44,524 nucleotides of DNA, from positions 1 to 44,524 of the forward strand of contig JACZKK010000009.1 in the NCBI GenBank assembly GCA_014860115.1, given 5' to 3'. The DNA is from Ignavibacteriaceae bacterium. Its GTDB lineage: Bacteria; Bacteroidota; Ignavibacteria; Ignavibacteriales; Ignavibacteriaceae. Each line of letters opens with the position of its first letter. Positions within the stretch are counted from its first letter, which is position 1. Of the stretch, positions 12,499-43,392 are shown piece by piece. A program made the translations under genes and the position numbers. The notes under the pieces are model-generated. The model did no database searches, was not told the DNA's origin, and saw nothing but the letters and a program-made list of their open reading frames with translations.

Positions 12499-13197
12499 TC
12501 AGCTTTTTCGTTTTTTCAACAAAAAGAATATTACGAGTAATAATACGGCACCGGATAAAATGTATATCCATACCGGTGTTTCCTTTAATTTATAAGGCTG
12601 GAAGGTTACTGAAATTGCTTTTCCACCACCAATTTCAGAAAGGTTGTACAGCCAGGTAAGTGATTTTCCGGAGACCTGATGAGCATTATGATTTAAAATA
12701 TCCCCAGGGATTGTATACTTGTATGTAACCGTAAAAGTGCTTGCATCGATGCCAAAACCGGTTGCAATCGGTGGGATGAATTGACTAAAAACTATTTGCC
12801 CACCTGTCTTCTCAACGAAAGAAAATTTGTATTCAGAAAACACTTTCGCTTGATTAAGAGAGTCAATATGAGTAAATGAAATATCAATAATTGCATGCGT
12901 CGAAAAGTCTGTCGTATCTCTATAAATATTTACACTTTCAACACTGCTGAAATTAGACTGAAATTCTGATCTGATTGAATCAGAATTAAAGATACCCAAG
13001 TTATCAACTACCTTTTCACTTTCCTCATTTGCAAATCTCATCCAGTAATCAATCCGCATTTTTCCAGAGCCGTCAGGGTACAGCGTTACTTCTTGATAAT
13101 AATTTAAGCAGCCATTTAAGCTAAGTACAGTCAAAAAGAACAGGGTTAAAAAATAATATTTGTTGATGCTTAGATGAGAGATTTTAGTATTATTCAT
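12499..13197 (-). CDS. Predicted lipoprotein with C-terminal transmembrane helix, function unknown
   Basis: I do not recognise a defined function for this 232-aa protein. Residues 14-29 are a hydrophobic signal ending in LSLNGC, a lipobox with Cys30 as the likely lipidated residue. The next residues (YYQEVTLYPDGSGKMRIDYWMR) begin a beta-rich extracytoplasmic domain. Near the C-terminus WIYILSGAVLLLVIFFLL is a clear transmembrane helix followed by KKRKS. The chain would thus be held in the membrane at both ends, with the charged tail inside. This layout recalls LppM-like lipoproteins, but that is only a resemblance. It lies between prs and the divergent FmdB gene and appears to be monocistronic. 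Confidence 0.8.
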   Translation of the reverse strand: MNNTKISHLSINKYYFLTLFFLTVLSLNGCLNYYQEVTLYPDGSGKMRIDYWMRFANEESEKVVDNLGIFNSDSIRSEFQSNFSSVESVNIYRDTTDFSTHAIIDISFTHIDSLNQAKVFSEYKFSFVEKTGGQIVFSQFIPPIATGFGIDASTFTVTYKYTIPGDILNHNAHQVSGKSLTWLYNLSEIGGGKAISVTFQPYKLKETPVWIYILSGAVLLLVIFFLLKKRKS

Positions 13198-13630: not shown

Positions 13631-16600
13631 CTAAAAATCTGCACCAAGCGAGAAATAAAATTTAGGGCTTGAAAACCCTTCAATATTATAAGCCCAGGCA
13701 ACATCAAAGCGAAGCAGGAAGTAGAGGAAATACACTCTGGCTCCGACACCAGTACCAACAAGCAAATCATCAGTAATAAGATTTCCTTGAGAGTTTTTGG
13801 TAAACAGACTTACCTTGCTGTTGTCATACCAGGTCGCACCGGCATCAACAAAAGCCACGCCTATAATATTGCTGAACAGCAGAGGTAACCCTCCTGTTAA
13901 CAAGTAACGTATAAGTGGGAATCTTAACTCCATATTCGCCAGGAGATACCTTGTTCCAATTCGTTCTGAATAATTGTAACCACGCAATGGAAGCACAGCG
14001 GTAAGAAATGCAAAGTCTGATGCAGATTCAATTGGTATTTCAGTGGTAGCGAAAGTTCTGTTTATCCAGTTTTCTGTGCCGCCAATAAAAAATCTCTGTG
14101 GATTTTCACCACCCGAGTAACCGCCTGATATTCTTAACGCGAGTGAATGATCATAGAAAAATCTGAGATAAGTTCTCATATCACCGATAATAGAATAAAA
14201 GCTTTTATTCGGATCTGTAACCCCAAGGTTACCGAAAACATCAAAACGATATCTGGTTCCTTGAATAGGTGCTGTATATCCCCACAAAACATTATCGTGA
14301 ACAAAACTTACTTGAGGAACAGTGAAGGTTATATTTTCAGTTGGCTCCATAATATTATCCAGGTTTTCACCAGTAACATTCAGGACACTGGCTCCAAAAT
14401 CAAACCTGTAAAATCTGTTGAGTGGAAAACTTGCCGAACCAGAAATACCAAAATTTCTGTAGCGGAATAAATTAGAAGTTAAAAATCCTCGCGGATCAAC
14501 TCTAAGAAGGCGAACGAATCTTGCAGTATGAAATCCTTCAATACCCCAATTAATTCGTTTTGCCAGATAGTAGTAAGCAAGACCATAATCACTGTTCTTT
14601 AAATCAATTTGAAGTCCTGTAACTCCAATTAAACGATGATTTCCAAGTACATCACTAAAAGAAATAACTGTTGACCCAATTAATCCATACAATGTGCTGT
14701 ATGCAGCATTTGCATATATCAGATCGGGAGCGAAGTTAATCCTGTACTGATTTACTTTAAAGTTGCCTTCCTCATCAAGGTTTTCAATTGCACTTAATGA
14801 ATCAGCTTCATCATTTTTTTTCGTGCTAACCACTTGCTCAGTACCAAAAACATAATTACCAAAATCAACTGTGACCGAGTCTCCATATTTTTTTGTTGAA
14901 TCAACAAAACTGCCGCTAAAAAACATTGAAGGATTAAAATCTGTGGTATCACCCTCAGCTTCCTTATTTTGATCCAGAGGAGGAGCATCCAGATCCAATT
15001 TGCCCTGCCTGAATTTAGTTGCTGGCAGTTCCTTCACATCAAGCTCGGAATCGAAAGCATTATTTAATAGAAAAATATTAAATGAAGATTTATATAACGA
15101 GGAGAATGCCAGCTTCTTACCATCTTTTGAAGCAGAAAGCTGGTACAAGCCTGATTGAGAATTTGTTACCGGTTCAGATTTTATATCTTTTATGTCACTA
15201 ACAAAATTATCATCGGAAGAAAAAACCAGCTTTTTTCTGTAGATATTATTAATACCATTAAGATCCGAGATAAACAAAATTTGACTTCCATCATAACTGA
15301 CGATAGGATTAGCTTCATTGCTATTGGGTAAGTCAGTAATTCTTTTTACCTGACCAGTTTCAACATCAAGCGCATAAATTTCAGTTTGCGAAATGTCATG
15401 CTTATAAATCTTAAATCCGTTGGGAACTTCTTTAATATTATTATAACTATTTCTATCCGAAGAAAAATATATTGTCTTTCCATCATAAGACCAGTTAGGA
15501 TCTTTGTCAGTGAAAATGTCGTTTGTTAAATTTATAATTTCTTTGGTTTCTAAGTTGTAAGTATAAATATCTGTTTGTTTTGCAGTTTGTCCAACAAATG
15601 CTAAATACTTTCCATCCCAGGACCAGGCAACACTTTGTACACCATCCATCTTTATTGGAAGTGTGATATAATCTTCCTCCTCAACATCAAAAATGTAGAC
15701 AATATCGTAACCATGACTTAAAGCAGCAATTGCAATCTTCGAACCATCCGGCGACCATGTTAATCCAGGAGTCAAAATATTCAACTCTTCAAAATTTGGA
15801 GATCTGTTTCCTTCTGCAAGTCTTGTTATGATCTTGCCAGTGCTCGCATCCATTAAATATAGACTAAAAAAGAAATCACGGTTTGTTATGAAAGCAATTT
15901 TATCACCCTGTGGAGAAATCGCCGGACTTGTATTATAAAACCCCTCATCACCATCAGGATCCGTTAAACGTTTTGCAAACTCATCGGGGTCTTCTGTTAT
16001 TGCAACATCAGGCCAGTAAACACGCTTTATATCTTTTTTCCATCTTTCGTTAAACTCCTTAAGATTCAAACCAATGGTCTGCTTGAACGCAGCATCAACA
16101 CTTCCAAGACTTCTTAAAGAATTAATTAGCTCGCTAATTTTTTCCCTGCCATATCTTCTGGCGATATAATAAAAAACTGCCTGACCGCCCCGGTAAGCAA
16201 AATAACCTGACAGTCTCTGGACATCCGGCAAATATTCATTAATGGCTGCATCTCTGATAAACATATCTGTATCTTCATCCCATCCAAGAGCCTGATACTC
16301 AGCCATACCCTCACTAAACCATATCGGTATATCTATTTGAATGTTGTTTGCGATAATGTTCTGCAGCGAACCACCATAAAACATATCATTCATCACAGCG
16401 TGAACCAACTCGTGGTGGATAAGATGACGAAATTGTTTGTATGAACCATGATACTGAACTACAACCCTGTTCTTAAACAATTCCGTAAAGCCCTCAATAC
16501 CTTCACTTAGATAATAATCAGTAACATTAGTCTCCTGGAAATCATTCTGTGAGTTATAAACTATGATTGTTATTCTGTTATTAATTGAATACTTAAAACT

Positions 16601-16813
16601 TTCCTGAATCTTCGCTAAAGCATCTTCGGAAGCGTGTGCGGTAAACTCAGCAAGTGTTTCACCATTATTATTAAAATAAATATCAAAATTTTTTGTCTGA
16701 ATGTAATACCAGTCAAAATATTTGTACTGAACTTTATTCTTGCCGAATTGTGCAAACAGGCTTATCTGCACAATAAAAATGAGAGCAAGAATTTTAATAA
16801 TCGGTTTTATCAT
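13631..16813 (-). CDS. Outer-membrane fusion: gluzincin-type peptidase, TolB-like propeller, Omp85-like barrel
   Basis: This is a 1060-aa protein. Residues 1-21 are a signal peptide (cleavage near SLFAQ). Residues about 35-260 form a peptidase-MA-like domain with HELVH (134-138) and a downstream FSEGMAEY, where Glu168 is the likely third zinc ligand, so the active site is complete. Residues about 280-620 contain repeated PD40/TolB-type blades (SPQGDKIAFITNRD, SPDGSKIAIAAL, SWDGKYLAFVG, SYDGKTIYFSSDRN, SYDGSQILFISDLNG). From about 690 to the end is a beta barrel of surface-antigen/Omp85 type, with LRGYNYSERIG near 960 and a terminal Phe. No POTRA domain is visible. It is 2 nt downstream of rnr, in the operon with tamB. 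A role in outer-membrane biogenesis or surface proteolysis is inferred. Confidence 0.85.
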   Translation of the reverse strand: MIKPIIKILALIFIVQISLFAQFGKNKVQYKYFDWYYIQTKNFDIYFNNNGETLAEFTAHASEDALAKIQESFKYSINNRITIIVYNSQNDFQETNVTDYYLSEGIEGFTELFKNRVVVQYHGSYKQFRHLIHHELVHAVMNDMFYGGSLQNIIANNIQIDIPIWFSEGMAEYQALGWDEDTDMFIRDAAINEYLPDVQRLSGYFAYRGGQAVFYYIARRYGREKISELINSLRSLGSVDAAFKQTIGLNLKEFNERWKKDIKRVYWPDVAITEDPDEFAKRLTDPDGDEGFYNTSPAISPQGDKIAFITNRDFFFSLYLMDASTGKIITRLAEGNRSPNFEELNILTPGLTWSPDGSKIAIAALSHGYDIVYIFDVEEEDYITLPIKMDGVQSVAWSWDGKYLAFVGQTAKQTDIYTYNLETKEIINLTNDIFTDKDPNWSYDGKTIYFSSDRNSYNNIKEVPNGFKIYKHDISQTEIYALDVETGQVKRITDLPNSNEANPIVSYDGSQILFISDLNGINNIYRKKLVFSSDDNFVSDIKDIKSEPVTNSQSGLYQLSASKDGKKLAFSSLYKSSFNIFLLNNAFDSELDVKELPATKFRQGKLDLDAPPLDQNKEAEGDTTDFNPSMFFSGSFVDSTKKYGDSVTVDFGNYVFGTEQVVSTKKNDEADSLSAIENLDEEGNFKVNQYRINFAPDLIYANAAYSTLYGLIGSTVISFSDVLGNHRLIGVTGLQIDLKNSDYGLAYYYLAKRINWGIEGFHTARFVRLLRVDPRGFLTSNLFRYRNFGISGSASFPLNRFYRFDFGASVLNVTGENLDNIMEPTENITFTVPQVSFVHDNVLWGYTAPIQGTRYRFDVFGNLGVTDPNKSFYSIIGDMRTYLRFFYDHSLALRISGGYSGGENPQRFFIGGTENWINRTFATTEIPIESASDFAFLTAVLPLRGYNYSERIGTRYLLANMELRFPLIRYLLTGGLPLLFSNIIGVAFVDAGATWYDNSKVSLFTKNSQGNLITDDLLVGTGVGARVYFLYFLLRFDVAWAYNIEGFSSPKFYFSLGADF

Positions 16814-16815
16814 TT

Positions 16816-18912
16816 TTAAATTTTGCTATTGCTGGTTATAAAATCCAATTCAAGATTTTCTAAATCTACCCGAACAAGTTTTACAGTAATTTTGTCTCCC
16901 AGCCGAAATTGTTTTTTTGTTCTCTTGCCAATTAATGAATATTTCTTCTCATCCAAAACATAAAAATCTCCCTCTAAATCTCTGGCACGAATCAGACCTT
17001 CTGCTAAAATATCAGTTAATTCAACGAAAATACCATAATTTACAACGCCCGAAATAACTGCGTGAAACTCCTCGCCTAATTTATTTTGCAGAAATTGAAT
17101 TTTTTTCAGCTTAACAGAACGGCGTTCTGCTTCCATAGCTGTTCTTTCTGTTGCAGAAATATGTTCGCAAATTTTAGTTAATTGATCAAGAGAATAATTT
17201 CTCCCGGATTTTGAAATCAAAGTTTTATCCAAAACTCTATGAACCAATAAATCCGCATATCGTCTGATTGGCGAAGTAAAGTGAGTATAGTTTTTAAAAC
17301 CCAATCCATAGTGTCCGATGTTTTTTGTTGAATATATTGCCTTTGCCATAGATCGAACAGCAAGCTCACTAATTACACTTTCTTCTTCCGTTCCTTTAAC
17401 CTGCTGCATAAGTTGATTAAACTGGGTTGCAGCTTTACCACCCTTCGGATTGAATGAATAGCCAAGTGATTTTACAAATCTTGTGAACTCAGTAATCTTT
17501 TCCTCATCCGGGAAGTCATGTACTCTGTAAACAAAGGGAATATTTCCTCGGGAAAAAATTCTTTCGGCAATAGTTTTGTTAGCAAGCAACATAAACTCTT
17601 CCACCAACATATTGCTTTCTTTCATTTCCTTTTTAAGAATATTTGATGGATGACCACTTTCATCAAGCTGAAATTCTACTTCAGGTGAAAAAAATTCAAA
17701 GCTGCCTGTTTTCATTCGCTTGCTTCTTAAATGCTTAGCTAGTTCATTCAGTAGATTGACTTCATCAGAAAAATCCCCTTCACCTGACTCAATAACTTTT
17801 TGTGCTTCCTCATAAGTAAATCTTCGCTTGCTATTTATAATTGTCCTGGCAATTTGATGATTAACCGTTTCACCTTTTCCTGTCATCTCAAAAATAACGG
17901 AAAAGGTTAGTCTGTCTTCGCTTGGAACAAGAGAACAAATATTGCTTGAAAGTTTTTCCGGCAGCATCGGAATTGCTTTGCCGACCAGGTAGACACTGTT
18001 CCCTCTTCCTGATGCTTCTTTATCAATTGAACTCCCTGCCTTCACATAATGGCTGACATCAGCTATATGAACACCGACTTTGTAATTGCCATTTTCCAGT
18101 TTTTCAATTGATAGTGCATCATCAAAATCTTTTGCATCGACAGGATCGATTGTGAAAACATTTTTACTTCTAAAGTCTATTCGTTTTCCAATTTCCTTTT
18201 CATCTATTTCCAGATTTATTGTCTCGGCTTCGGCGTTAGTTTTTTCATTAAATAAAAAAGCAATACCAAACTCACGGGCAATAGATGTTACTTCCGTGTG
18301 CAGAGTTCCCTCCTTGCCAATCACTTCAACTACTTCTCCTACAGGATTCTGCATCCTGTCTTCCCAGGATATGTTTCCAACTGCAACTTTATCTCCTGTT
18401 TTGGATTCTTTCAGACTTTTCTCATCCACATAAATATCCCTGTGAATTTTGGGATCATCAGGTGTGACAAAATAAAATGATCTGGATTTTTTCAACTGTC
18501 CGACAATTTCTTTTCTTTTTCTTTCAATCACTTTCGTTATTTGACCCTCAAGATTTTTGCCTTTCTGTTTTGCAAACAGAACAACCTCAACTTTATCACC
18601 GTGAAAAGCACTGTTAATATTACGTGCAGCTATAAAAATATCTCCGGTCTTAGAATTTTTTGGTGTGACAAAACCATAACCACCATCATTTAAATTGAAA
18701 AATCCTATCAATATGTTGGATTCAGGCATTGAGTAAAGCTTATACCTTTTGCCATTCCTTGAAAGGAACTGTTCTGATTCAAGCTGGTGTAAATCACTTT
18801 TTAGCTGATGGTAGCTTTGCTCATCCTTTATCTTCAACCGTTTAGCAATTTCTTTTGATTTAAAGGAGCTGCCGGGATTTTCTTTGAAGAAAGTTTTAAT
18901 TTGATTTTTCAT
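16816..18912 (-). CDS. rnr: Ribonuclease R
   Basis: This 698-aa 3'-5' exoribonuclease degrades structured RNA. It has an N-terminal winged-helix region (about 5-60, SSFKSKEIAKRLKIKDEQSYHQLKSDLHQLE), cold-shock/OB domains (GGYGFVTPKN, then IYVDEKSL), the RNB catalytic domain with DPVDAKDFDDALSIE (near 252-266, holding the metal-binding Asp cluster) and HIADVSHYVKAG, HFTSPIRRYADLLVHR, and a C-terminal S1 domain (about 610-690, FHAVISGVVNYGIFVELTD). Length and order match VacB/RNase R rather than RNase II. Its start ATG overlaps the tamB stop by 1 nt (TAATG), so it is likely translated by coupling. Confidence 0.96.
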   Translation of the reverse strand: MKNQIKTFFKENPGSSFKSKEIAKRLKIKDEQSYHQLKSDLHQLESEQFLSRNGKRYKLYSMPESNILIGFFNLNDGGYGFVTPKNSKTGDIFIAARNINSAFHGDKVEVVLFAKQKGKNLEGQITKVIERKRKEIVGQLKKSRSFYFVTPDDPKIHRDIYVDEKSLKESKTGDKVAVGNISWEDRMQNPVGEVVEVIGKEGTLHTEVTSIAREFGIAFLFNEKTNAEAETINLEIDEKEIGKRIDFRSKNVFTIDPVDAKDFDDALSIEKLENGNYKVGVHIADVSHYVKAGSSIDKEASGRGNSVYLVGKAIPMLPEKLSSNICSLVPSEDRLTFSVIFEMTGKGETVNHQIARTIINSKRRFTYEEAQKVIESGEGDFSDEVNLLNELAKHLRSKRMKTGSFEFFSPEVEFQLDESGHPSNILKKEMKESNMLVEEFMLLANKTIAERIFSRGNIPFVYRVHDFPDEEKITEFTRFVKSLGYSFNPKGGKAATQFNQLMQQVKGTEEESVISELAVRSMAKAIYSTKNIGHYGLGFKNYTHFTSPIRRYADLLVHRVLDKTLISKSGRNYSLDQLTKICEHISATERTAMEAERRSVKLKKIQFLQNKLGEEFHAVISGVVNYGIFVELTDILAEGLIRARDLEGDFYVLDEKKYSLIGKRTKKQFRLGDKITVKLVRVDLENLELDFITSNSKI

Positions 18913-21900
18913 TAGAATACAAAACTATATTTTAATCCGAGTTCGTTAATCATTTCACTGTAGGTTGAAGATTGATAAGGAGGTTCTTTTCTATCAAATC
19001 TAATAATTAGATTCGGAAAATATAACGGATGCTCAATCTTTACGTTCGCACGGCTGAAATCCGTGAATACCTGCGAAGTTCCGCCAATTTCATATCTGAA
19101 ATCCGCAACTTTTCCTATTAAGCTAAATTTTGTCTCGGTACCGACTTGCTGAACGTTAACACTTCGAACAACATCTCCCAGTTTTTCATTCAAAACATTG
19201 CCGACAATCGATCCCGCAAGTGAAGCTGCAGTTGAGGCAGCAAAGTTTGATTCCTGGAGTGATGCATCTTCCGGAAACTTATTTACGATAATAAAGAACA
19301 TAGCATCGGATGCAGTTTTAGTGGCATCAAGCTCAAACTGATTGGCGTTTCTTCTGCTCTTATAAACCGAAACGTTACTCTCATCCTGAAGAAAATTAGT
19401 TGTAATATTTTTAGCAGGACCCTCCACTTTGATCTTTATCTGAACGTCCCACTCATTAGCACCGGTTCTCACTGTATCGGGACTATAAAAACTTTCATAG
19501 GTTGCAGTTACGTCAACATAAGGATTATCTATCTCATTAAGAAATTTAACATTACCTTCTGCCTGAAATGTTTTAATGAAATCCAATTTTGAACCGTCAA
19601 GTAATACTAATTCCCCACGCGTAAAAGGCACATCATTAAGAATTGTATATTCAAAATTTCCTCCAAGATATGCGGTAAGATTTTGTTTAAATTCTCGTGA
19701 AAGTACAAATACAACTTTTACTTCATCTTCAACTTGAATTTTCAAATCAAGATCGAAAGGAATTATTGTTTCCTTCTGTATCTCTTCCTTCTTAAGTTCT
19801 GCAACCTGGATTAAGCTATCAATCTCCTTTTTCGATAAATCCTCATCTTCACCTAACTTAAAAATATATGTGAACTTATCATTTTCATTCGCGAAAGCAG
19901 ATTGAGTAGGTGAATATGTAATATTTGCATTCCTATCAAGTATTAAATCAGCTTTCAGATAGCTTCGGTCTTCGGATGAAGTAAACACTATATCATCGCG
20001 TGTCCTCACAGTAATATCACCAAACAATGATGGGTCAGCCGATCTGAACCGCTCATCGAGCAATTTTAAAGCGCCGGAGGCATTTAGATTAATACTTTCA
20101 ATTTGAAAATTCCGCAGGACAAATTCACCTTTAGCTGTCATCGTTCCGCCATTTTTTATATTAGGTTCGTTTTTCAGATTTAAGCTAGAGAGTACTATTT
20201 TATTATTTTCAAAGTTAATTTTGGAATCGAGAATGTATTTTAGATTATTTGCCACAAGAACAAACGAAGAATTGCTTATCGTAAGTTCACCATTATTTTT
20301 AAGATTATTGTATGGTCCGCTAAAATTAATATTTCCATTCATAAACCCATTGATGTTTCTTGTTCCTGCTATAAGGCCTGTAACAAAGCGAAGATCAAAG
20401 TTATCCGCAAAGAGAGTCATATCAACGATTTTATTCGGGATTAATCTTTCCTCCGAATAAAATGCGAAATCAATTGGAAGTGTACCCTTTAAGCCCAACC
20501 TGCTTCTTGATTGATTATTTTTTGCTTCCAGAAAGTTCAGATCAACATTAAGTAATTTGTCCGAATACTGAATTTCACTTTCAACTGAACCAAGGTAGAT
20601 GTTTTGCGCCTTAATAGAATCTATTGAATAACTAAGATTCATAACTGGATTTGCTGCAGTTCCAGTCATAACAAAATCAAGATTCAACTCGCCATCAAAT
20701 GAACTCTCGGCGGAAAGACCAAAAAGGTTTGTGTTCAAATCTTTCAACTTGAAGTTACTGAGCTTTAAAGCTAAATCTTCATTTCCTGTAAAAGACAACT
20801 GCCCACCAAGATCAAGCAATCCTCCATTATGGGCTAAAACAAATGAATCAAAATTTATTTTATCTTCCGAGTAACTGAATTTAATGTTATCTGAATTTCG
20901 CAGGTCGAATTCATAATATTTGAAAAATAATTTATCAAACAGAACATCCACGTATCCTTCATTAATAAAGAGTGAGCCTTCAAGATCCAATCTTGTATCA
21001 GACTCATATACAGTACTTAAATTTATTTTTGCATCACTTCCATCAAAATTCAAATTAAAAATAAGATCACTGATTTCGCTACCAATAAAAATTCTTTTTG
21101 CATCAACATTTAAATCTGCTATAAACCCATCAAATGATTCAGCAGATGATCTGTTCTTCATACTCAATGAAAAATCAAAATCGGATAAGTAAAAAAGTTC
21201 GAGACCATCCCAGTATTTCATCTGGTCAATTTTAGTATCGAGGGTCAATTTTGTTGTATCACCTGCCGCTAATAATTTACCCGTGATTTCTCCATCAACT
21301 TCTATTTCAGCATTCCCTAAAAAGAGTGATAGCAATTCAAATGATTTGAGTTCCAGCAGATACTGTATGTCTAAGTTCCTGTTTTTTGGTAATTCTGCAG
21401 TGACTTTTGTCAGATCAAAAGTTTTGGATTGTAAACCGGCCTTAGTAAAATCGGGAGGTTGTATCTGATCAATCTTATTCTGTATGGATGAAGAAAGCAA
21501 ATTTGATTCCTCAGAAATTACATCAATTACTTCCAGCAAAGTAAATTCACCTGTTATCGTAAGATCCGCAAGATCAGAGATAATGTTTATAACACGATTT
21601 TCATCACTGCTTCTTATATCTGCAATTAAAGTAGTGCTGTCAATTTGAATGTCATTTAGCTGCGAACTATCAATTTCAAGAACTGCGAACAAGTTTAATT
21701 TATCCATGTCGAAGTTCTCCCCGTCTCCCTTGAGAGAAATATTCAACTCAGAATTGATTCCGCTTTCTTTTACGAAATCATTGATATTAAAACCATTAAG
21801 AGCAATATCGAAACTATATTTCGTAGTTGTTGTATCAGAAAAATTAAAATCTGTGTTAAGCCTGCCTTGTGTTTCAAGTGATGTGAATACGACTTTGGTG

Positions 21901-23402
21901 TTTATAATTCCTTCCGAGCCTTCAGCAACAATACTAAAATCACTAAAAAATATTCCTTCAATAGTTGATGCGTCAGCAATCAGTTTGATTGACGATTCAA
22001 GTGACTCAGGAGAAAATTCTTTGCCTTTCAGACTGCCATTTAAATTCAGACTTGAGTTTATCCCTGCGATTGGCATCAGGTTTAATTTGTTAGTTCTGAT
22101 CTGGTAATCGTACAAAATCTCTTCACCTCTGAGATCCATTTTTACTGATCCGCTTATACTGCCTTGATCTGTCTGAAGCAATAAATATGATGCGAAATTC
22201 AAAGGCTGACCATCGTAAGCAAGAGAATCAAATTGAAGAACACCGTACTCTTTGTATGTTGGTATTTCAAGAGTTGGCAGCAGTGCAGTAACATCATCCT
22301 GATTGATGAATGAGTTTCTGAAATTCATATTTATTTTCATTTCACCGCCGTCGAGTATGTTTTGCAGATAGCCGGTTGCATTTAAATTAGTATTCGCAAG
22401 CTTTACTTCAAGGTTTTTAAGCTCAAGTTCATTTAATGTACCCTCTGCACTTACATGTGTTTCAACATTGCCTTTGAGAATATCTGTTCCTTCAATAAAG
22501 TTAGTCAAATCATCAAAGTTCAAATTCATTGTGTTCATCTCGATTTTGAAAGGAGATTTTTCGAGATCGATACCTTCCTTACTGAAAAGATAGAATTCTG
22601 ACACTCCAGCATTGAGTGAAATAAAAGATCTTTCGGTAATAATCTTCAGATCAGTTATTCCTGCCAGATCCTCAAGCAGAACAAAGTTGCCAGAAAGATT
22701 CAGAAGCTTAAATCCATTTAAATTTGGTTTAACACTGAACTCCGATATGTTGAGCTGATATTCATGTGCTGCAATATTCACATCGGCAGTAAGAGAAAGA
22801 TTAAGATTTTCTAACCTGAAGTCATCTATTACAGGCTGAGGGTAGTACGCCTTGCTATTTTTATTTGCGAGCGACTGATGTTTAAAATTAATATTCTTCA
22901 GATTCAACTCTGATACATTAATCTTCCAGTTGAATGGTTCAGTTTCGGTTACTACCTCTTTCATTACTTCCTCCTCAGGTGGGTCAGTGATTTTAGATAG
23001 ATTTAGTACTCCGTTTTCATCTTTTAAAAGAGAGATGTTTGCATTTTCTATTTCCAGCTTACGTACATAAATTGTTTTTAATAATATCCTTAAAGGACTT
23101 ATTTTTATCTCAATTTTCTCTGCTGTTAAAAGGGTATCCTCTTTAAAAATATAAGAGGTGTTAGATAAAACCAGAGTAGTGAAGATGGTTCCGTCAAGCT
23201 GTTTAATAGACAATTTTCCATTCGAGGAAGAGTTAACCTCCTCAACTACAAAATCTTTTAACCAGTTTCGGAAGGATGAAGTTTGTGTGTAACCAAAAGC
23301 TATAAGCAGAATGACAATCAAACCGATACCCGCTCCAAGAAAATAATTAATTATTCTCCGGAAGAGTGGTTTTTTAATTTTTGTTTTTTTTCGGAAAAGC
23401 AT
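18912..23402 (-). CDS. tamB: Translocation and assembly module subunit TamB-like protein
   Basis: This is a 1496-aa AsmA/TamB-family protein, longer than E. coli TamB. Residues about 14-40 (RRIINYFLGAGIGLIVILLIAFGYT) are an inner-membrane signal anchor. An N-terminal AsmA-like segment follows (LSIKQLDGTIFTTLVLSNTSYIF), then about 1000 residues of repetitive beta strands expected to form a periplasm-spanning groove for lipids. The C-terminal DUF490/TamB domain (last 250 residues) includes VPFTRGELVLLDGSKLDFIKTF and a terminal strand ending YSFVF. TamB proteins help move phospholipid or assemble outer-membrane proteins. No TamA lies beside it, but an Omp85-like barrel gene follows after rnr in the same run. 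Confidence 0.9.
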   Translation of the reverse strand: MLFRKKTKIKKPLFRRIINYFLGAGIGLIVILLIAFGYTQTSSFRNWLKDFVVEEVNSSSNGKLSIKQLDGTIFTTLVLSNTSYIFKEDTLLTAEKIEIKISPLRILLKTIYVRKLEIENANISLLKDENGVLNLSKITDPPEEEVMKEVVTETEPFNWKINVSELNLKNINFKHQSLANKNSKAYYPQPVIDDFRLENLNLSLTADVNIAAHEYQLNISEFSVKPNLNGFKLLNLSGNFVLLEDLAGITDLKIITERSFISLNAGVSEFYLFSKEGIDLEKSPFKIEMNTMNLNFDDLTNFIEGTDILKGNVETHVSAEGTLNELELKNLEVKLANTNLNATGYLQNILDGGEMKINMNFRNSFINQDDVTALLPTLEIPTYKEYGVLQFDSLAYDGQPLNFASYLLLQTDQGSISGSVKMDLRGEEILYDYQIRTNKLNLMPIAGINSSLNLNGSLKGKEFSPESLESSIKLIADASTIEGIFFSDFSIVAEGSEGIINTKVVFTSLETQGRLNTDFNFSDTTTTKYSFDIALNGFNINDFVKESGINSELNISLKGDGENFDMDKLNLFAVLEIDSSQLNDIQIDSTTLIADIRSSDENRVINIISDLADLTITGEFTLLEVIDVISEESNLLSSSIQNKIDQIQPPDFTKAGLQSKTFDLTKVTAELPKNRNLDIQYLLELKSFELLSLFLGNAEIEVDGEITGKLLAAGDTTKLTLDTKIDQMKYWDGLELFYLSDFDFSLSMKNRSSAESFDGFIADLNVDAKRIFIGSEISDLIFNLNFDGSDAKINLSTVYESDTRLDLEGSLFINEGYVDVLFDKLFFKYYEFDLRNSDNIKFSYSEDKINFDSFVLAHNGGLLDLGGQLSFTGNEDLALKLSNFKLKDLNTNLFGLSAESSFDGELNLDFVMTGTAANPVMNLSYSIDSIKAQNIYLGSVESEIQYSDKLLNVDLNFLEAKNNQSRSRLGLKGTLPIDFAFYSEERLIPNKIVDMTLFADNFDLRFVTGLIAGTRNINGFMNGNINFSGPYNNLKNNGELTISNSSFVLVANNLKYILDSKINFENNKIVLSSLNLKNEPNIKNGGTMTAKGEFVLRNFQIESINLNASGALKLLDERFRSADPSLFGDITVRTRDDIVFTSSEDRSYLKADLILDRNANITYSPTQSAFANENDKFTYIFKLGEDEDLSKKEIDSLIQVAELKKEEIQKETIIPFDLDLKIQVEDEVKVVFVLSREFKQNLTAYLGGNFEYTILNDVPFTRGELVLLDGSKLDFIKTFQAEGNVKFLNEIDNPYVDVTATYESFYSPDTVRTGANEWDVQIKIKVEGPAKNITTNFLQDESNVSVYKSRRNANQFELDATKTASDAMFFIIVNKFPEDASLQESNFAASTAASLAGSIVGNVLNEKLGDVVRSVNVQQVGTETKFSLIGKVADFRYEIGGTSQVFTDFSRANVKIEHPLYFPNLIIRFDRKEPPYQSSTYSEMINELGLKYSFVF

Positions 23403-23413
23403 TTCGCTTCAAA

Positions 23414-23893
23414 TTACTTCGAGTACCGATTAACGATCAGATCAATTATCTTGGAAGTTGATTGATCATTCACAAATTCTATGTTCATGACTTTGCCGCC
23501 GTTCTTCTCAACTATTTCTTTACCGACAATTTTTTCTACAGCCCAATCGGCACCTTTTACAAGAATATCCGGGATGATTTCAGATATTAATTTTTCCGGT
23601 GTGTCTTCATCAAATAAGACAACATAGTCAACCGGCTTTAGATTGGAAAGGATGAATGCTCTTTCTTCCTGTTTAAGAATTGGACGCTTGTATCCTTTTA
23701 TTCTTTTCACTGAGTCATCGGAATTTAATCCAACAACAAGAACATCACCAAGTTTTTTTGCTTTGGAAAGATAATCCACGTGTCCCGCATGAATCAGATC
23801 GAAAACACCGTTCGTAAAGACTACTTTTTTTCCTTCAGCTTTAAGCTTTGAACGAACTGCTTTAAGTTCTGAAAGTGAAGTTGATGAGCTCAT
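23414..23893 (-). CDS. rfaE2: D-glycero-beta-D-manno-heptose 1-phosphate adenylyltransferase
   Basis: This 159-aa nucleotidyltransferase has the cytidylyltransferase-fold signature: VVFTNGVFDLIHAGHVDYLSKAK with HAGH at 35-38, then GLNSDDSVKRIKGYKRPI and a C-terminal QSTSKIIDLI (ISTT-like loop). It transfers AMP to heptose 1-phosphate, giving ADP-heptose for the LPS inner core. It is the stand-alone equivalent of the C-terminal half of E. coli HldE. Its ATG overlaps the stop of rfaE1 by 4 nt (ATGA), and tamB follows after 11 nt. Confidence 0.94.
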   Translation of the reverse strand: MSSSTSLSELKAVRSKLKAEGKKVVFTNGVFDLIHAGHVDYLSKAKKLGDVLVVGLNSDDSVKRIKGYKRPILKQEERAFILSNLKPVDYVVLFDEDTPEKLISEIIPDILVKGADWAVEKIVGKEIVEKNGGKVMNIEFVNDQSTSKIIDLIVNRYSK

Positions 23894-24885
23894 AAAATTT
23901 CTTTTAAAACTGTTTTGAACAGTTGTTCTTTTTCAATAGGAACGATACCGACTTCTCCACATACAATTCCTGCAGCGTAATTTGCAAGGAAGCAGGCTTC
24001 ATAAATATCAGCACCGGCAGCGAGTCCTATTGTAAGTGTTGAAATTACAGTATCACCCGCACCGGAAACATCTGCAACTTTAATTGCTTTTGTCGGCATT
24101 CGTCTTTCCCTATCACCATCTTCGAACACTGCAATTCCACCTTCTCCGAGAGTTAATAGAACATATTTAGAATTTAATTTGTTGAGAAGATCTCTTCCTG
24201 CAGACGAAATGTCTTTATCGCTTTTAATCCTTATTCCAAGAACTGTTTCAGTTTCTTTTCTGTTCGGCTTGAAGACGGTTACATTTTTATATTCAAAAAA
24301 ATTATCAAACTTCGGATCAACGGTGACTAGTATATCTTTTTTATTTGCAATTGATATGATATTTGAAATGAGTGAAGGTGTCAAAATTCCTTTGTTATAA
24401 TCCTGAAGTATTATTCCATCAAGTTTTTTAAGCAAATTTTCAATGTGAGCTAAAATTTTTGACTCGATTTTATGATTGATGTACGCCTTGCTCTCTTTAT
24501 CAATTCTTACAACGTGCTGATTGTTTGCAATCACGCGAGTCTTTGTAGTAGTTGGTCTTTCGTTGTCGATAATAATTCCATCGTCTTCAATATTTTTTTC
24601 TTTTAATAATGAAGAAAAAATATTTCCGTAATTATCGTTCCCAATTACTCCAACCGGAACAGGAATTCCACCAAGAGTTAAAACATTTAAAGCAACATTT
24701 GCAGCACCACCGAAACGGAAAAATTCATCTTCAACTTCCAGCACAGGAACAGGAGCTTCGGGTGAGATTCTTTTAACATCGCCCCAGAAATAACCATCGA
24801 GCATCATATCACCAATGACTGCTATTCTTTTACCGTCAAAGCCTTTCTTAAGATCATTCAGTCGTTTATTTGAAATATCAACCAT
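23890..24885 (-). CDS. rfaE1: D-glycero-beta-D-manno-heptose-7-phosphate kinase
   Basis: This 331-aa PfkB/ribokinase-family sugar kinase has IAVIGDMMLDGYFWGDVKRISPEAPVPVLEV at 21-51, the FGGAANVALN motif at 58-67, GVIGNDNYG, and the ATP/catalytic loop DVSGAGDTVIST near 268-280 with the catalytic Asp. It phosphorylates heptose 7-phosphate to the 1,7-bisphosphate in ADP-heptose synthesis and corresponds to the N-terminal half of HldE. A phosphatase (GmhB) and isomerase (GmhA) are needed too and are not in this window. The gene begins a new run after the hairpin at 24946-24964. Confidence 0.95.
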   Translation of the reverse strand: MVDISNKRLNDLKKGFDGKRIAVIGDMMLDGYFWGDVKRISPEAPVPVLEVEDEFFRFGGAANVALNVLTLGGIPVPVGVIGNDNYGNIFSSLLKEKNIEDDGIIIDNERPTTTKTRVIANNQHVVRIDKESKAYINHKIESKILAHIENLLKKLDGIILQDYNKGILTPSLISNIISIANKKDILVTVDPKFDNFFEYKNVTVFKPNRKETETVLGIRIKSDKDISSAGRDLLNKLNSKYVLLTLGEGGIAVFEDGDRERRMPTKAIKVADVSGAGDTVISTLTIGLAAGADIYEACFLANYAAGIVCGEVGIVPIEKEQLFKTVLKEIL

Positions 24886-24994: not shown

Positions 24995-27118
24995 TTATTT
25001 CAGTAAGACCATCTTCTTTGATTGAACGAATTCCCCGGCATTGATTGTATAAAAATAAATTCCTGAAGATGGAAAATGTTTGAAGGAAGATGCATTAAAT
25101 TCAACTTCATATTCACCGGGTGAAAGTTCTTCATTTACCAATGTTGCTACTTCATTTCCAAGAATATCGTAAACTTTTAAAGAAACTATTTGGGTTTGCT
25201 TCGCTCCGCTCGCAATGACAGACGGTATCGTGAATTTAATTTTAGTGCTCGGGTTAAATGGGTTTGGATAGTTTTGCATAAGAGTATATCGATCTGGTAG
25301 CGAAGCATTTTCAACAGTAACTTCTTTGCTATAAACAAAACTACCATCGAAGTCAATTTGTTTTAACCGGTAAACAAATGATCGGGTGATCAGTTCACTC
25401 ACATCATCAGAGTACTCATAGAATTGAGGTTCGGTGGTTGTACCTTTACCAACAATAAAACCAATACTTAACCATTCACCCACATTCTCCTTATCTATAG
25501 TCTTCCTTTGTATTTCAAAACCTTGATTATTGGTTTCCGTCGCAGTTTGCCAGTTGAGAATTATCCCATCTTCAGTGAACTCCGCTGTAAATGATGTTAA
25601 TTCAACAGGAATTAATATGGGTGCTGTTGAGACATGATAATATTGTGCAGTCACACTAACCGGCATTGGAGGTGAAGCATTAATGTTACTACCCGGCACC
25701 GAATCTACCTGAACCACCATATGCACTGTACAATACTCATTCGACACCGGATTTATTTGTGCCATACTTATATATCTCCAATCTCTAAGTGGAGTAACTG
25801 GAGTAAATCTTTCTGGCGAAGTCCAGTTCTCTCCTCCATCTCCACTTGACATAAAGTAACCCGCAAAATATGACGTAGAATCTGTATATGAACTTCCAGG
25901 CCAATACTCTCCACTGGTTGCATTAAAAGCAACAAAAAGATGATTGAAATTTTGAGAACGTCCAATTACTGGTCTGCAGATTGGGAGAAACACATCATTT
26001 GTTCCTTTACTGGGGTAGAATGGTATAACGCTGGAATCTGCTAATACTATTGATACTCCACCGTTTATAGCAGGTCGCCAAAAACGGATTTCCGATTCTC
26101 TTTGTGGATAATATGTACCTGAAGTATTCATCCAACCAAGCTCAAATACGACACAAGGTTGTTCACCATAAAAACTAACACAAATACCTCTCAGGCAGCC
26201 AAAAAAATCTCCTGTTCCAGGATCCACAATTGCGTCCCAAATTTTTATCGGTGCGGTCCAATTCAATCCGCCATCAGTAGATTCGATATAGAATACATCT
26301 CCGTCATCAGCTGCTTGTCCAAGATGTGCTAATCCAATTTTTCCTCCTTCAGAAACTGCAAGTGAATAAGTCTCCGCCTGATCGCCGTCATGCATCTGCC
26401 AACCGCTGAATGAACCATTTACAAAGGTATTAGTGTAAAATCCCGTTCCAGCATTAACTGAAGCGGCTATTACGCTGCTATTATTTGACAAAACAACTAA
26501 TCTCGGCCATATGGATACTCCGCCGGTTGGAGAATCAGGGTCATACTCCGTAAATTGAAATTCGAAAATGGAGTTATCATAATATAATTTAGTACGAGTG
26601 GGTGTGTTAAAAGAATTATTGTGATTCGAAATTACGGCCGCACCATTTGGTCTTCCATAAATACATGGGAAACCTGATCGCCCACTGGTAACAATATTAA
26701 TTGGCACTCCTCCGAGCTCAAACCAATTAGCTCCGGCATTTACACTTCCAAAGTAAAGACTAGTTCTATCCGACCAGGATCCATCAGCAACGGATGAGTA
26801 CGTAAATATAGCGTGCAGATAGTCTGGATAATTTACATTTAACCAAACTTGTTGAGGAGATGCATTTGATTGATGATCGTAACCATTTTTTCTAAAATCA
26901 GATATGATATGAATATTGTATGTAAAAAAATCACCTTGTACAAGTAGGAAGTGATCAATATTATCTGACTCTATCACATTCATACTTGAAAAATCAAATA
27001 TTTCAGAGCCATCTATGGCCTTTATTTCTTGAGCATCGTATTTACTGGTTTGAGCATAGTTTGAGAAATGCACTGATAAGAAACAAGTGACAGCCAGAAT
27101 TAAAAATGTTTTTTTCAT
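24995..27118 (-). CDS. T9SS type-A sorting-domain protein with BNR/sialidase-like repeats (family 1)
   Basis: This 707-aa secreted protein starts with a signal peptide (1-22, MKKTFLILAVTCFLSVHFSNYAQ). Residues about 60-500 hold Asp-box (BNR-like) motifs of the S-x-D-x-G-x-x-W kind (NAGANWFE, STDGGLNWTAP, SGDGGENWTSP), suggesting a beta propeller. No sialidase catalytic set was identified, so this is structural rather than enzymatic evidence. A fibronectin-like module follows (PVELTSFTAEF...NWQTATETNNQGFEIQR). The C-terminal sorting domain begins with NYPNPFNPSTK near 618 and ends KKMVLLK, directing export by the T9SS and surface attachment. A palindromic repeat is inserted in frame at residues about 633-642. 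It is paralogous to the gene upstream (27164-28909). AAGGAGG precedes the ATG. Confidence 0.85.
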   Translation of the reverse strand: MKKTFLILAVTCFLSVHFSNYAQTSKYDAQEIKAIDGSEIFDFSSMNVIESDNIDHFLLVQGDFFTYNIHIISDFRKNGYDHQSNASPQQVWLNVNYPDYLHAIFTYSSVADGSWSDRTSLYFGSVNAGANWFELGGVPINIVTSGRSGFPCIYGRPNGAAVISNHNNSFNTPTRTKLYYDNSIFEFQFTEYDPDSPTGGVSIWPRLVVLSNNSSVIAASVNAGTGFYTNTFVNGSFSGWQMHDGDQAETYSLAVSEGGKIGLAHLGQAADDGDVFYIESTDGGLNWTAPIKIWDAIVDPGTGDFFGCLRGICVSFYGEQPCVVFELGWMNTSGTYYPQRESEIRFWRPAINGGVSIVLADSSVIPFYPSKGTNDVFLPICRPVIGRSQNFNHLFVAFNATSGEYWPGSSYTDSTSYFAGYFMSSGDGGENWTSPERFTPVTPLRDWRYISMAQINPVSNEYCTVHMVVQVDSVPGSNINASPPMPVSVTAQYYHVSTAPILIPVELTSFTAEFTEDGIILNWQTATETNNQGFEIQRKTIDKENVGEWLSIGFIVGKGTTTEPQFYEYSDDVSELITRSFVYRLKQIDFDGSFVYSKEVTVENASLPDRYTLMQNYPNPFNPSTKIKFTIPSVIASGAKQTQIVSLKVYDILGNEVATLVNEELSPGEYEVEFNASSFKHFPSSGIYFYTINAGEFVQSKKMVLLK
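25194..25220 (-). repeat. In-frame palindromic element, GTCATTGCGAGCG type
   Basis: The coding strand reads GTCATTGCGAGCGGAGCGAA followed by GCAAAC. It matches a short dispersed palindrome I recall from many bacterial genomes. It encodes VIASGAKQT within loop A of the sorting domain, between the IPS and VSLKVYD strands. Confidence 0.65.
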
Positions 27119-27163
27119 TTCATCCTCCTTAAATTGTCTAAAAATATTTAATTGATATAATTA

Positions 27164-28909
27164 TTACTTTAAGTAAACCAATTTCTTTGTCTGAACAAAT
27201 GCTCCAGCACGAAGTGTGTAGAAGTAAATTCCACTGGAGAGATTCCGGACAAGCCGGAATGACGAAACAGATGATGCATTAAACTCAACTTCATATTCAC
27301 CGGGTGAAAGTTCTTCGTTAACGAGTGTTGCAATTTCTTTGCCGAGAATGTCATAAACTTTTAGTGTAACCAATATGTCACTCTGAGCCTGTCGAAGAGT
27401 GACGGACGGAATGTTGTATTTTATTTTAGTGCTTGGGTTAAACGGGTTTGGATAGTTTTGCTCTAAATTGAATGATGAAAATGGTTTCGGATCATCTTGA
27501 ACGTTAATTATTGGAAATTCAGTGGAAAAATGATAATATTGAGCAGTAACACTTTGAATGCCCCACCATGAATTTACATTTGAACCAGGCATTGGATCAC
27601 CCTGCATCACGAGGTGGACTTTAATGAAATTATCGTTAAGGGGAGATATTGGCACAATGCTCACGTATCTCCAGTCAATAAGTGGAGAAGTAATTGGAGT
27701 AAATCTTTCAGGATCTGACCATGTATTACCTGCGTCTGAGCTGTACATAAACATACCGCACATATACGCAGTTGAGTCAGCTGAACTTGATCCTGGCCAA
27801 TACTCACCAGTTGTAGCATTAAATGCAACTAACAAATAATCGTTTGATTGAGACCTTCCAATTACCGGTCTGCTTAACGGAAATTGTTGATCCGTAATAC
27901 CAAGGTTAGGATAGAAAGGAACGTTACTACTGTCAGCAAGAACTTTTGATTCTCCTCCATTAATATTCGGAGACCAGAATCTGATCTCTGATGGTAAACC
28001 CGGATAATAACCTGTATCTGTATTCCAACCAACCTCAAATACAACGCACGGTTCTTCACCAATAAAGATAAGATTAACACCCCTGAACCCGCCACGAATA
28101 TTACCAGTAACAGAATCTGTATAGGCTTGCCAGACAATAGTTGGTGGTGCCCAGGTTATTCCACCATCAGTTGTCTCATTGTAGAAGACCCAATTAGCCT
28201 GACCTAATAAAGATTCACCCAAACAAGCCAAGCCTATCTTAGTGCCATTTTCAGAAACAGCAAGAGAATAAGTTTCAGGTTCACCACCACCAACTAAACC
28301 CCATCCACTAAAAATACTTCCGCTCAATTTATTTAAATAAAGATCAGAACTAAAAGCAGCTATTAAGACATCATTATCAGGAAGAATGGCAAGTTTTGGA
28401 TAAAGAGCTGGTCCAGTTATTGTTTCACCGGGATCGTACTCAGTAAAGTTATTTTCAAATAAAGAATTGTCAATAAAAATAGTGGATCTTGTCGTATGTG
28501 GTGCATTATTATTATGATTGGCAATGACAGCACTACCATCTGAAGTTCCGACAATACAGGGAAAACCTGAACGACCTGTTGTACCATTATTTATAGGAAC
28601 TGCACCAACTTCAAACCAGCTTCCACCTGCATCTGTACTGCCAAAATAAATACTGGTTCTGTCTGCCCAGGCGTTATCGGCAACCGCTGAATAAATAAAA
28701 ACAGCATGAAGATTATCAGGATTAGTTAAGTCCAACCAAACCTGTTGAGCCGATCCGTGTGACTGATAATCATAACCGGTCTTTAAATCCGATATATCAT
28801 CAATTGCCCAAATAAAATTTGGCGAGTGGTATTTATCGACCGGTATATTTTGGGAATATAATGAGATCGAAAGAATAAAAATCACAAAAGATATTTTTAG
28901 TGTTAACAT
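27164..28909 (-). CDS. T9SS type-A sorting-domain protein with BNR/sialidase-like repeats (family 1)
   Basis: This 581-aa protein has a signal peptide (MLTLKISFVIFILSISLYSQN) and an Asp-box propeller region closely paralogous to the 707-aa neighbour. Shared stretches include YDYQS.., QQVWL, S.VAD..W.DRTS.YFGS, TGRSGFPCI, and GRSQ..N.L.VAFNATTGEYWPGSS. Asp boxes are STDAGGSWFE, TTDGGITWAPP and SSDAGNTWSDP. It lacks the fibronectin-like module of its paralogue: the propeller runs almost directly into NYPNPFNPSTK near residue 485. The sorting domain is about 25 residues longer than in the 972/977-aa cargo proteins because it holds two in-frame palindromes (about 503-511 and 549-556). GAGGTGAAATT precedes the ATG. 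The likely destination is the cell surface; its ligand is unknown. Confidence 0.85.
   Translation of the reverse strand: MLTLKISFVIFILSISLYSQNIPVDKYHSPNFIWAIDDISDLKTGYDYQSHGSAQQVWLDLTNPDNLHAVFIYSAVADNAWADRTSIYFGSTDAGGSWFEVGAVPINNGTTGRSGFPCIVGTSDGSAVIANHNNNAPHTTRSTIFIDNSLFENNFTEYDPGETITGPALYPKLAILPDNDVLIAAFSSDLYLNKLSGSIFSGWGLVGGGEPETYSLAVSENGTKIGLACLGESLLGQANWVFYNETTDGGITWAPPTIVWQAYTDSVTGNIRGGFRGVNLIFIGEEPCVVFEVGWNTDTGYYPGLPSEIRFWSPNINGGESKVLADSSNVPFYPNLGITDQQFPLSRPVIGRSQSNDYLLVAFNATTGEYWPGSSSADSTAYMCGMFMYSSDAGNTWSDPERFTPITSPLIDWRYVSIVPISPLNDNFIKVHLVMQGDPMPGSNVNSWWGIQSVTAQYYHFSTEFPIINVQDDPKPFSSFNLEQNYPNPFNPSTKIKYNIPSVTLRQAQSDILVTLKVYDILGKEIATLVNEELSPGEYEVEFNASSVSSFRLVRNLSSGIYFYTLRAGAFVQTKKLVYLK
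27241..27263 (-). repeat. In-frame palindrome, GTCATTCCGG type
   Basis: ATTCCGG (coding strand) is mirrored by CCGGAAT around CTTGT. It encodes SFRLVRNL in loop B, between the EVEFNASS and SGIYFYT strands of the sorting domain. Confidence 0.65.
27377..27403 (-). repeat. In-frame palindrome, GTCACTCTTCGACAGG type
   Basis: The arms GTCACTCT and AGAGTGAC are perfect 8-bp inverted repeats around TCGACAGGCTC. It encodes VTLRQAQSD in loop A, the same site as the different palindrome in the 707-aa paralogue. Confidence 0.7.
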
Positions 28910-28960
28910 AATTTCACCTCAATAATTTAATTTTTTAATGATAATTAAATTGCTTTTTAA

Positions 28961-30676
28961 TCACTTTATCAAAATCATTTTCTTTGTTTGAACAAATTCT
29001 CCTGCACGAAGAGTGTAGAAGTACACTCCACTCTTCAGTCCGCTTTTGGCGGAGAATTCAACTTCATAACTTCCTGCTGGTCTATATTCATCCACGAGGG
29101 TTGCAACTTCCCTTCCAAGCATATCATATACTTTCAAAGTTTGCCAACTGCTTACTGGTGACTGCCAACTGATTTTCGTGCTTGGATTAAATGGATTGGG
29201 ATAATTCTGTTCGAGTTTGAAATCACCTAATTCTGCTACATGCTCATCAGTTGATAAAATTATCGGGTAACCAAAATTATCCTCATAAAAATCCTGAATA
29301 GCATCCGAGAGTGATTTTGCGGATGTTACTGAACTTATAGCATCGCTTCCGGTACCTACAATATAAGCCATCATAATTTCTTTTGTTTGATTTGTTTCGA
29401 GATTGAAGGACTTAATGCTCATTATAGCATGATTCTCAGTGGAATTTGAGTTTATCCATCCAATATCTGAAACGGGATCTCCGGAATACCAATAATGCGG
29501 ATCAACTGAGCTGCAATCAATACCACCTCTTACTTCGCCGTACTGATATGTACAGGGATCAGCTATATTACCATTTCTCTGCAGACCATTTAAGTAATTT
29601 CTGGCTTCTAATGGATTGCGTGGTTCTCCTTGATAAATAATCCCGTCAGCATAAGTGACCCCTGCTTTCATATTCAAATTAGTCGCACCTACATAAACGC
29701 GAACACCAAGCTGCCCTGCAAAAACATATGCTGTATCAAGTGGAGTGTCTATACCATTTTCATAAACACCATTTCCGTTGAGATCAATAAAGCTAACTCC
29801 AGGGATGTAACTTACCGGCCCTGATAGAAAATCTACCAGGAAAGTAAGAGGAGTCATTCCGGGGTAAAAGCAAGTGCTGTCACCATAGCAGTAATGAGCA
29901 TTCCTGACGGTATCTGTTCCACCTAAATTGTCTAGGATATTACCGATATCAGTATCATAAGGATGACCAAATATTACATCTTCAAGATTTGCAGCAACTA
30001 AACCTGTATTCTTAATTTTGTAACGAATAAAAATTGTATTCGAAAGAGGTAATTGATCAGTTTCAAAAGCGAAAATCGTTTGTCTGATTTCTATTCCAAG
30101 TGGATTCATTGGCCATCTTCTGTCATCAGAGGGAACACCATCGTTATAGACACACCAGTAAGTTTCATCGCCTAAAATATCTGGTTTATCCTCATCCGGA
30201 TCCCACTGGTTGTTGCCATTCAAATCAACTGGATTGTAAATTCCATCTCCATCACCGTCATAAAAATCTGCACCAAGTGCAACGGCATCTATCCAATCCA
30301 GCCAGCTTTGACCGAAAGGCGGATCATCACTTCTCAATTTATAAATAGCAGAACGTGGATCCTCTGGGCCTATATTTATTGTACCCGACTGGTAATCTTG
30401 GACAAAAACATTTGGCATTACACCGTTAGTCCATACAGAATCACGAATACCACTCAGAAAAAATCCTCCAGAAAAAAGTACGCCCTCCCCATTAAATTGG
30501 CCACCTGATCCTGATGGAGGAATATTTACACCTGCAATTACTCCTTCTCTATTAAAAGGAAGGTAAATATCATTTACTTCGATGTAAGCTTCGTCGCCGA
30601 CGTTCTGGCTGAAAATTGTTATTGCCGGAAGACACAGTATTACTGATGTCAGAAGTATAAAAAATGTATTTTTCAT
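28961..30676 (-). CDS. T9SS type-A sorting-domain protein with dockerin-like Ca2+ loop (family 2, short form)
   Basis: This 571-aa secreted protein has a signal peptide (MKNTFFILLTSVILCLPAITIFSQ). The mature part starts directly with LPFNREGVIAGVN and FSGGFFLSG. These align with the C-terminal two thirds of the 972- and 977-aa neighbours, so it lacks their N-terminal propeller. Residues about 138-165 (FYDGDGDGIYNPVDLNGNNQWDPDED) look like EF-hand/dockerin-type calcium loops. The domain continues WCVYNDGVPSDDRRW and IRQTIFAFE, whose function I cannot name. The sorting domain starts at NYPNPFNPSTK near 491 and ends KKMILIK. It contains a heptamer array (502-511) and a small palindrome (542-546). 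GGAGG precedes the ATG. Confidence 0.85.
   Translation of the reverse strand: MKNTFFILLTSVILCLPAITIFSQNVGDEAYIEVNDIYLPFNREGVIAGVNIPPSGSGGQFNGEGVLFSGGFFLSGIRDSVWTNGVMPNVFVQDYQSGTINIGPEDPRSAIYKLRSDDPPFGQSWLDWIDAVALGADFYDGDGDGIYNPVDLNGNNQWDPDEDKPDILGDETYWCVYNDGVPSDDRRWPMNPLGIEIRQTIFAFETDQLPLSNTIFIRYKIKNTGLVAANLEDVIFGHPYDTDIGNILDNLGGTDTVRNAHYCYGDSTCFYPGMTPLTFLVDFLSGPVSYIPGVSFIDLNGNGVYENGIDTPLDTAYVFAGQLGVRVYVGATNLNMKAGVTYADGIIYQGEPRNPLEARNYLNGLQRNGNIADPCTYQYGEVRGGIDCSSVDPHYWYSGDPVSDIGWINSNSTENHAIMSIKSFNLETNQTKEIMMAYIVGTGSDAISSVTSAKSLSDAIQDFYEDNFGYPIILSTDEHVAELGDFKLEQNYPNPFNPSTKISWQSPVSSWQTLKVYDMLGREVATLVDEYRPAGSYEVEFSAKSGLKSGVYFYTLRAGEFVQTKKMILIK
29039..29053 (-). repeat. In-frame palindrome TCCGC-CAAAA-GCGGA
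   Basis: Perfect 5-bp arms around five bases. It lies in loop B of the sorting domain (SAKSGLK), the same place as the GTCATTCCGG-type palindrome in the next gene downstream. Confidence 0.5.
29144..29171 (-). repeat. Four tandem heptamers (CAGTnnn) inside a sorting domain
   Basis: The coding strand reads CAGTTGG, CAGTCAC, CAGTAAG, CAGTTGG in succession. Exactly four units replace loop A and encode WQSPVSSWQ. Because seven is not a multiple of three, gain or loss of one unit would shift the frame. Confidence 0.7.
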
Positions 30677-30689
30677 TTTGTACCTCCGT

Positions 30690-33608: not shown

Positions 33609-33635
33609 TCTGGCCTCAGATTTTTTATTAAATTT

Positions 33636-37862: not shown

Positions 37863-37868
37863 ACAACT
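37761..37868. repeat. Two facing arrays of degenerate octamers
   Basis: On the plus strand 37761-37808 reads as successive 8-mers close to GGTATAAA (GGTACAAA, GGTATAGA, GGTATAAA, GTTATATT, GTGTAAAT, GTATAAAG). From 37821 to 37868 the 8-mers are close to TTATACCN, the reverse complement. The two arrays form an imperfect inverted repeat around an AT-rich centre. They overlap the panB stop and the start of the propeller gene. Confidence 0.6.
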
Positions 37869-41634: not shown

Positions 41635-41679
41635 TTAGAAATCCGATTTGTTTTACGATTTGAAAGTATTAATTGGTTG

Positions 41680-41710: not shown

Positions 41711-41740
41711 TAAACAGGAATTTTTGGAATGACTTAAGAT

Positions 41741-43313: not shown

Positions 43314-43322
43314 AATGACTCC

Positions 43323-43373: not shown

Positions 43374-43392
43374 ATTATTAAAAAAAATGAAC

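Follow-up and report, generated by a model that had tools for sequence, protein, structure and literature searches.

A predicted WD40-Omp85 protein with a conserved peptidase domain, encoded beside rnr and a TamB-family gene in an Ignavibacteriaceae bacterium

The window, that is the whole stretch of 44,524 nucleotides analysed here (contig JACZKK010000009.1 of assembly GCA_014860115.1), carries the open reading frame 13631-16813, whose make-up of three domains was confirmed at the level of sequence (Table 1). The expected start of the mature protein, QFG(K/Q)NK, was conserved in relatives, and neither a lipobox nor a lipidation Cys was read at the end of the signal peptide. The gene closes a tightly packed group, and the 1-base overlap and the 2-base gap within it suggest that the TamB-family gene, rnr and the present gene are carried on one transcript.

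Table 1. Features of the gene at 13631-16813 and of the genes directly upstream of it (positions in the window).
Feature	Residues	Positions	Strand	Remarks
Whole gene		13631..16813	-	1060 aa, ATG start; peptidase-like domain, propeller and Omp85 barrel
Signal peptide	1-21	16751..16813	-	Hydrophobic; cleavage expected before QFGKNK; read from sequence
Peptidase MA (gluzincin-type) domain	22-290	15944..16750	-	PF13485 match at residues 62-263
HELVH	134-138	16400..16414	-	H134 and H138 predicted zinc ligands; E135 predicted catalytic base
EGMAE	168-172	16298..16312	-	E168 predicted third zinc ligand; E172 second shell
PD40/TolB-like beta-propeller	291-600	15014..15943	-	PF07676, TIGR02800, PDB TolB
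Linker	601-685	14759..15013	-	Poorly conserved; no POTRA
Omp85 barrel	686-1060	13634..14758	-	Family profile matches
PLRG, Omp85 loop-6 motif	942-945	13979..13990	-	P and R invariant, G nearly invariant in A3
rnr (RNase R)		16816..18912	-	PF00773, E 1.1e-112; directly upstream, 2-base gap to 13631-16813
TamB-family gene		18912..23402	-	Stop overlaps rnr start by 1 base (TAATG); NF047952 TamB, E 3.7e-20
HldE-type kinase and cytidylyltransferase genes, cluster head		23414..24885	-	PF00294, PF01467

The wider window is an envelope-biogenesis region. Positions 36699-44512 (minus strand) hold the end of a BamA gene at the window edge, two OmpH/Skp-like genes and an LpxC-FabZ fusion, with a regulator-propeller protein encoded at 36699-37910 (minus strand) within this envelope cluster. 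At 24995-36569 (minus strand), flanked by the lipid A genes and those of HldE type, lie five large genes in a row whose products carry T9SS C-terminal sorting domains (Por_Secre_tail), some of them also BNR repeats, and a lipoprotein-like ORF at 12499-13197 (minus strand), downstream of the gene, gave a weak match to LppM below the cut-off.

The N-terminal domain was matched by PF13485 (Peptidase_MA_2) along profile positions 2-200 of 201 with an E-value of 1.4e-13 and 51.5 bits, against a cut-off of 32.4 bits; the M48 peptidase profile gave no match. In an alignment of 56 proteins the residues H134, E135, H138, E168 and E172 were invariant among 37/37 diverse orthologs and 8/8 paralogs. An HExxH motif followed by a downstream Glu within a matching domain marks the protein as a predicted gluzincin, the ligand roles within EGMAE being deduced from the thermolysin-type layout. 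Mean pairwise identities calculated from the same alignment were 0.54, 0.43 and 0.42 for peptidase, barrel and propeller, respectively, making the peptidase the best-conserved domain of the chain, while the linker fell to 17.7% as compared with 42-54% in the domains. A search of the PDB with the profile of the peptidase domain identified no relatives by sequence, and the AlphaFold model of this domain, calculated from only six close sequences, had a mean pLDDT of 39.6. Given an invariant site and a domain of unusual conservation, it is plausible that the protein is a protease acting on substrates or misfolded proteins.

The propeller was matched in four stretches by PF07676 (PD40, E 2.3e-19) and by the TolB propeller model TIGR02800 (E 1.5e-35), the latter with 122.9 bits and so below the equivalog cut-off of 343.15, and it resembles solved TolB structures by sequence (E 4.5e-9, PDB 1crz included). 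For the barrel, PF01103 did not match the single sequence, and detection was obtained at the level of the family, in which 12 of 22 barrel regions were matched by PF01103 (best E 2.4e-17); the family profile also matched the POTRA protein 9ccg (1.9e-10) and E. coli BamA (1.3e-5) in the PDB, and its hhalign comparison with POTRA-Omp85 proteins gave 96.9%. The best NCBIfam barrel match was TamL (E 6e-9), with 34.9 bits against a cut-off of 400. Together with the loop-6 motif LRGY at 943-946 and the terminal F1060, both conserved in A3, these matches place the C-terminal domain among the predicted barrels of the Omp85 superfamily. A crude scan found 19 amphipathic segments in the barrel, three of them possibly loops or hairpins, which is compatible with 16 strands and no proof of them, and in the AlphaFold model of the full chain, again from only six close sequences, mean pLDDT was 36.9 and the barrel region lay at about 20-35. 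POTRA models, PF07244 included, gave zero matches to the whole chain even at E-values up to 1. The profile searches thus bore out the first-pass annotation, which had proposed from the letters alone an intact HExxH plus downstream Glu motif, a TolB-like propeller and an Omp85-like barrel without POTRA domains in one chain.

The chain is no peculiarity of its organism: the protein belongs to a conserved, phylum-wide family and its layout occurs in at least three copies in the source genome, with two further proteins of this kind on contigs C98 and C33. Matches were found in 59 of 59 relatives searched, the orthologs being 49-93% identical, and the five relatives named comprise four Ignavibacteriaceae MAGs and a fifth labelled Bacteroidetes. 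A phylum-wide sample gave matches at E 0.001 in 369 of 392 genomes, a figure that is an upper bound because some matches are to the propeller only; roughly 150 of the best listed matches were full or near full length and spread over the phylum. No relatives were found in a scan of viral contigs. A one-off fusion was rejected in view of the orthologs in relatives and across the phylum. The protein is also not the sole unusual Omp85 of its genome, where several Omp85 types occur, including a patatin-Omp85 and a short barrel. The patatin-Omp85 (L105:4735-7182, contig C86) has a POTRA domain and is a relative of PlpD, and on contig C7 (L104, 3995-10929) two more large Omp85-barrel proteins with an N-terminal domain unrecognised by Pfam are encoded, separated by two genes.

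Seven proteins (L141-L147), drawn from six families, have kept all three domains, and both His residues of HExxH are gone in 7/7. Five of the seven could be aligned by blastp over almost the entire chain at about 24-25% identity, and the peptidase regions of the site-less and active proteins are clear homologs (hhalign E 4.6e-58). The site-less proteins formed one monophyletic clade with full SH-aLRT support. The ratio of peptidase to barrel identity was 1.28 in the active orthologs and 0.95 in this clade, which is what a lost catalytic constraint would look like at the level of sequence. The simplest reading would be that catalysis is selected for in most lineages and was lost once; the tree was a quick, midpoint-rooted one in which L103 and L148 were flagged as long branches, so that the polarity of the change is deduced from the presence of the site in all other groups. 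Since a whole clade lost the site yet kept the domain, the job of the peptidase domain cannot be proteolysis alone. In six of these cases (L142-L147) the gene lies, as judged by eye, near or next to a gene for a metallo-beta-lactamase-fold-like protein of ~213-226 aa, not rnr.

The gene neighbourhood recurs in part of the phylum. Counted by eye, 29 of 70 genomes, from 13 of 45 families, have rnr immediately upstream on the same strand, the link being missing in 32 of the 45 sampled families, and in 12 of the 13 rnr-linked families a TamB-family ORF of 1350-1630 aa precedes rnr; HldE-type genes adjoin the cluster in other families too. The TamB-family protein of the window is the sole, weak PF04357 match in its genome and was matched to TamB by profile at E 1.3e-77, and ORFs before rnr that PF04357 does not match still group with TamB by profile comparison (E 1.3e-77, 3.1e-89). 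The TamB-rnr pair was also seen without a propeller-Omp85 gene (L111, L157). As the pair also occurs without the present gene and an envelope role of rnr is not obvious, part of the linkage may be old gene order. A genome with two TamB-Omp85 neighbourhoods (G116) was also observed, in one of which a PF04357 TamB gene comes after a POTRA-Omp85 gene (L110:2536-8936), the other being the TamB-like/rnr/propeller-Omp85 cluster elsewhere.

The propeller and the POTRA-less barrel are not a new combination, since Heinz and Lithgow (2014, PMC4104836) described a WD40-Omp85 subfamily with an N-terminal propeller most like TolB and an Omp85 barrel, which they likened to a BamA-BamB fusion. To judge by its domain matches, a propeller and an Omp85 barrel with no POTRA, the present chain falls under that definition, and the first-pass view of a propeller in place of POTRAs as an unusual design had therefore been anticipated in print. 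The use of the propeller as the docking part fits the architecture of the chain and resembles the BamA-BamB-like arrangement suggested by those authors. What is added here is the peptidase domain: the word "peptidase" occurs nowhere in the text of PMC4104836, whose "Metallo" group carries PF00149, a domain absent from the present ORF. Furthermore, Omp85 families other than BamA, TamA and Lipo were called patchily distributed in that paper, whereas the present family extends across the phylum, with a tree that mostly agrees with the families of the genomes. In the open-licence literature we found no later study of peptidase-bearing WD40-Omp85 proteins, although work elsewhere is possible, no use of the term WD40-Omp85 outside PMC4104836, and nothing relevant that combines PD40, peptidase MA and BamA; WD40 proteins go unmentioned in a 2015 TAM study, and no experiment on any family member was found in the literature.

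Several better-known systems share parts of the design. BamA with BamB likewise combines an Omp85 barrel with a propeller at the periplasmic face, but BamA has POTRAs, BamB is a separate lipoprotein and no protease is part of the chain. TolB is similar in propeller sequence and is a free periplasmic protein. TamA/TamL share with the present protein the linkage of an Omp85 barrel gene to a gene of the TamB family, and differ in carrying POTRAs, in the lipid anchor of TamL and in that rnr intervenes here and separate TamL-like proteins exist. PlpD also bears an enzyme domain on an Omp85 barrel, yet this is a lipase domain, the POTRA is kept and there is no propeller. As a functional model we took BepA, the E. 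coli protease at BAM (PMC8423444), which offers the working analogy of a zinc HExxH-type protease at an Omp85 machine but differs in being a soluble M48 enzyme with TPR repeats.

Given the neighbourhood, the product could be a counterpart of TamA, the outer-membrane partner that takes up the TamB C-terminus, the POTRAs being replaced by propeller and peptidase. Conservation of the cluster together with a TamB-family gene in 12 families, the location in that cluster of the only PF04357 match of the genome and the rank of TamL as top NCBIfam barrel match argue for this role. It is nevertheless unlikely, as a separate POTRA-bearing TamL-like protein was found in 8/8 Ignavibacteriales genomes examined, the copy in the source genome (L109, without a lipobox) matching TamL at E 8.4e-46; a full TamL is likewise present in three genomes with the site-less form, and in Flavobacterium johnsoniae TamB binds TamL even though their genes are not adjacent (PMC12045153). 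Simple replacement of TamA was demoted, and the protein was not filed as TamA/TamL, because TamL-like POTRA proteins are present in the same genomes. An accessory role on the TamB route is more likely than identity with TamA/TamL.

The retention of all three domains by an entire clade that lost the metal site would suit a structural scaffold in which the site is intact but proteolysis unimportant; this is quite unlikely given the invariance of the site in 37/37 orthologs and 8/8 paralogs and the fall in domain conservation only where the site is lost. Export of the peptidase domain to the cell surface by its own barrel, in the manner of PlpD, has a precedent in the enzyme-bearing barrel of patatin-Omp85 (PMC4104836, PMC11116518), a type present in the same genome, but we consider it highly improbable: more than 500 residues, including the propeller that adjoins the barrel, would need to pass, the peptidase is the most conserved part, which is unusual for a surface domain, and the ortholog is near universal in the order, as for a housekeeping gene. 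That universality, with one gene context in many families, suggests a general role, which also tells against a maturation protease specific for a single secreted or outer-membrane substrate and unconnected to TamB. Such a protease would account for the several paralogs per genome that share this architecture (C98, C33), suggestive of a division by substrate, and for the several T9SS-type cargo genes in the window; of these readings we give it the least credence.

We tentatively favour a WD40-Omp85-type factor dedicated to outer-membrane assembly or quality control, placed near TamB and following BepA-like logic, while holding this as a possibility only. The domains, the invariant site, the deep conservation, the TamB-rnr gene order and the envelope-biogenesis window all support an assembly or quality-control role. 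The barrel would sit in the outer membrane after insertion by BAM through its C-terminal Phe signal, with the propeller and the peptidase assumed to face the periplasm. At the position of the POTRAs of BamA, the propeller may, like TolB and BamB, provide the docking site for a client or partner, and the zinc peptidase would trim or remove clients stalled at the barrel, as BepA does at E. coli BAM; in the site-less clade the peptidase domain would retain a binding or structural role only. The TamB route of envelope biogenesis would probably supply the clients or the partner, a part of the proposal that is weakened because the adjacency to TamB may be inherited housekeeping order, in view of the intervening rnr and of the 32 of 45 sampled families without the link, and because the separate TamL/TamA-like POTRA-Omp85 proteins of the genome (L109, L106) could be the partner of TamB. 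A wider form of the proposal, which we regard as somewhat unlikely, is that Bacteroidota possess, besides BamA and TamL, another Omp85 machine of general function, in which barrel, propeller and zinc protease would work with a TamB-family lipid or protein bridge, the protease being a dead scaffold in one lineage.

The architecture represents a variation on a type that is in print yet unstudied, for which a BepA-like clearing or trimming guided by the propeller would be the mechanism. New here are the invariance of the metal site, the peptidase as the best-conserved domain, the site-less clade and the TamB-rnr neighbourhood that recurs. Most deserving of pursuit are the peptidase domain, the way in which one clade has cleanly lost its site, and this gene order. 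Well-studied Bacteroidota may be without the protein, which, as a guess, could explain its neglect. The loss of the site in one clade provides a natural test of what the protease does. If the proposal is true, tasks that in E. coli are divided among BamA, BamB or TolB, and BepA are united in a single chain, and barrel assembly and proteolytic clearing would be open to study in one protein.
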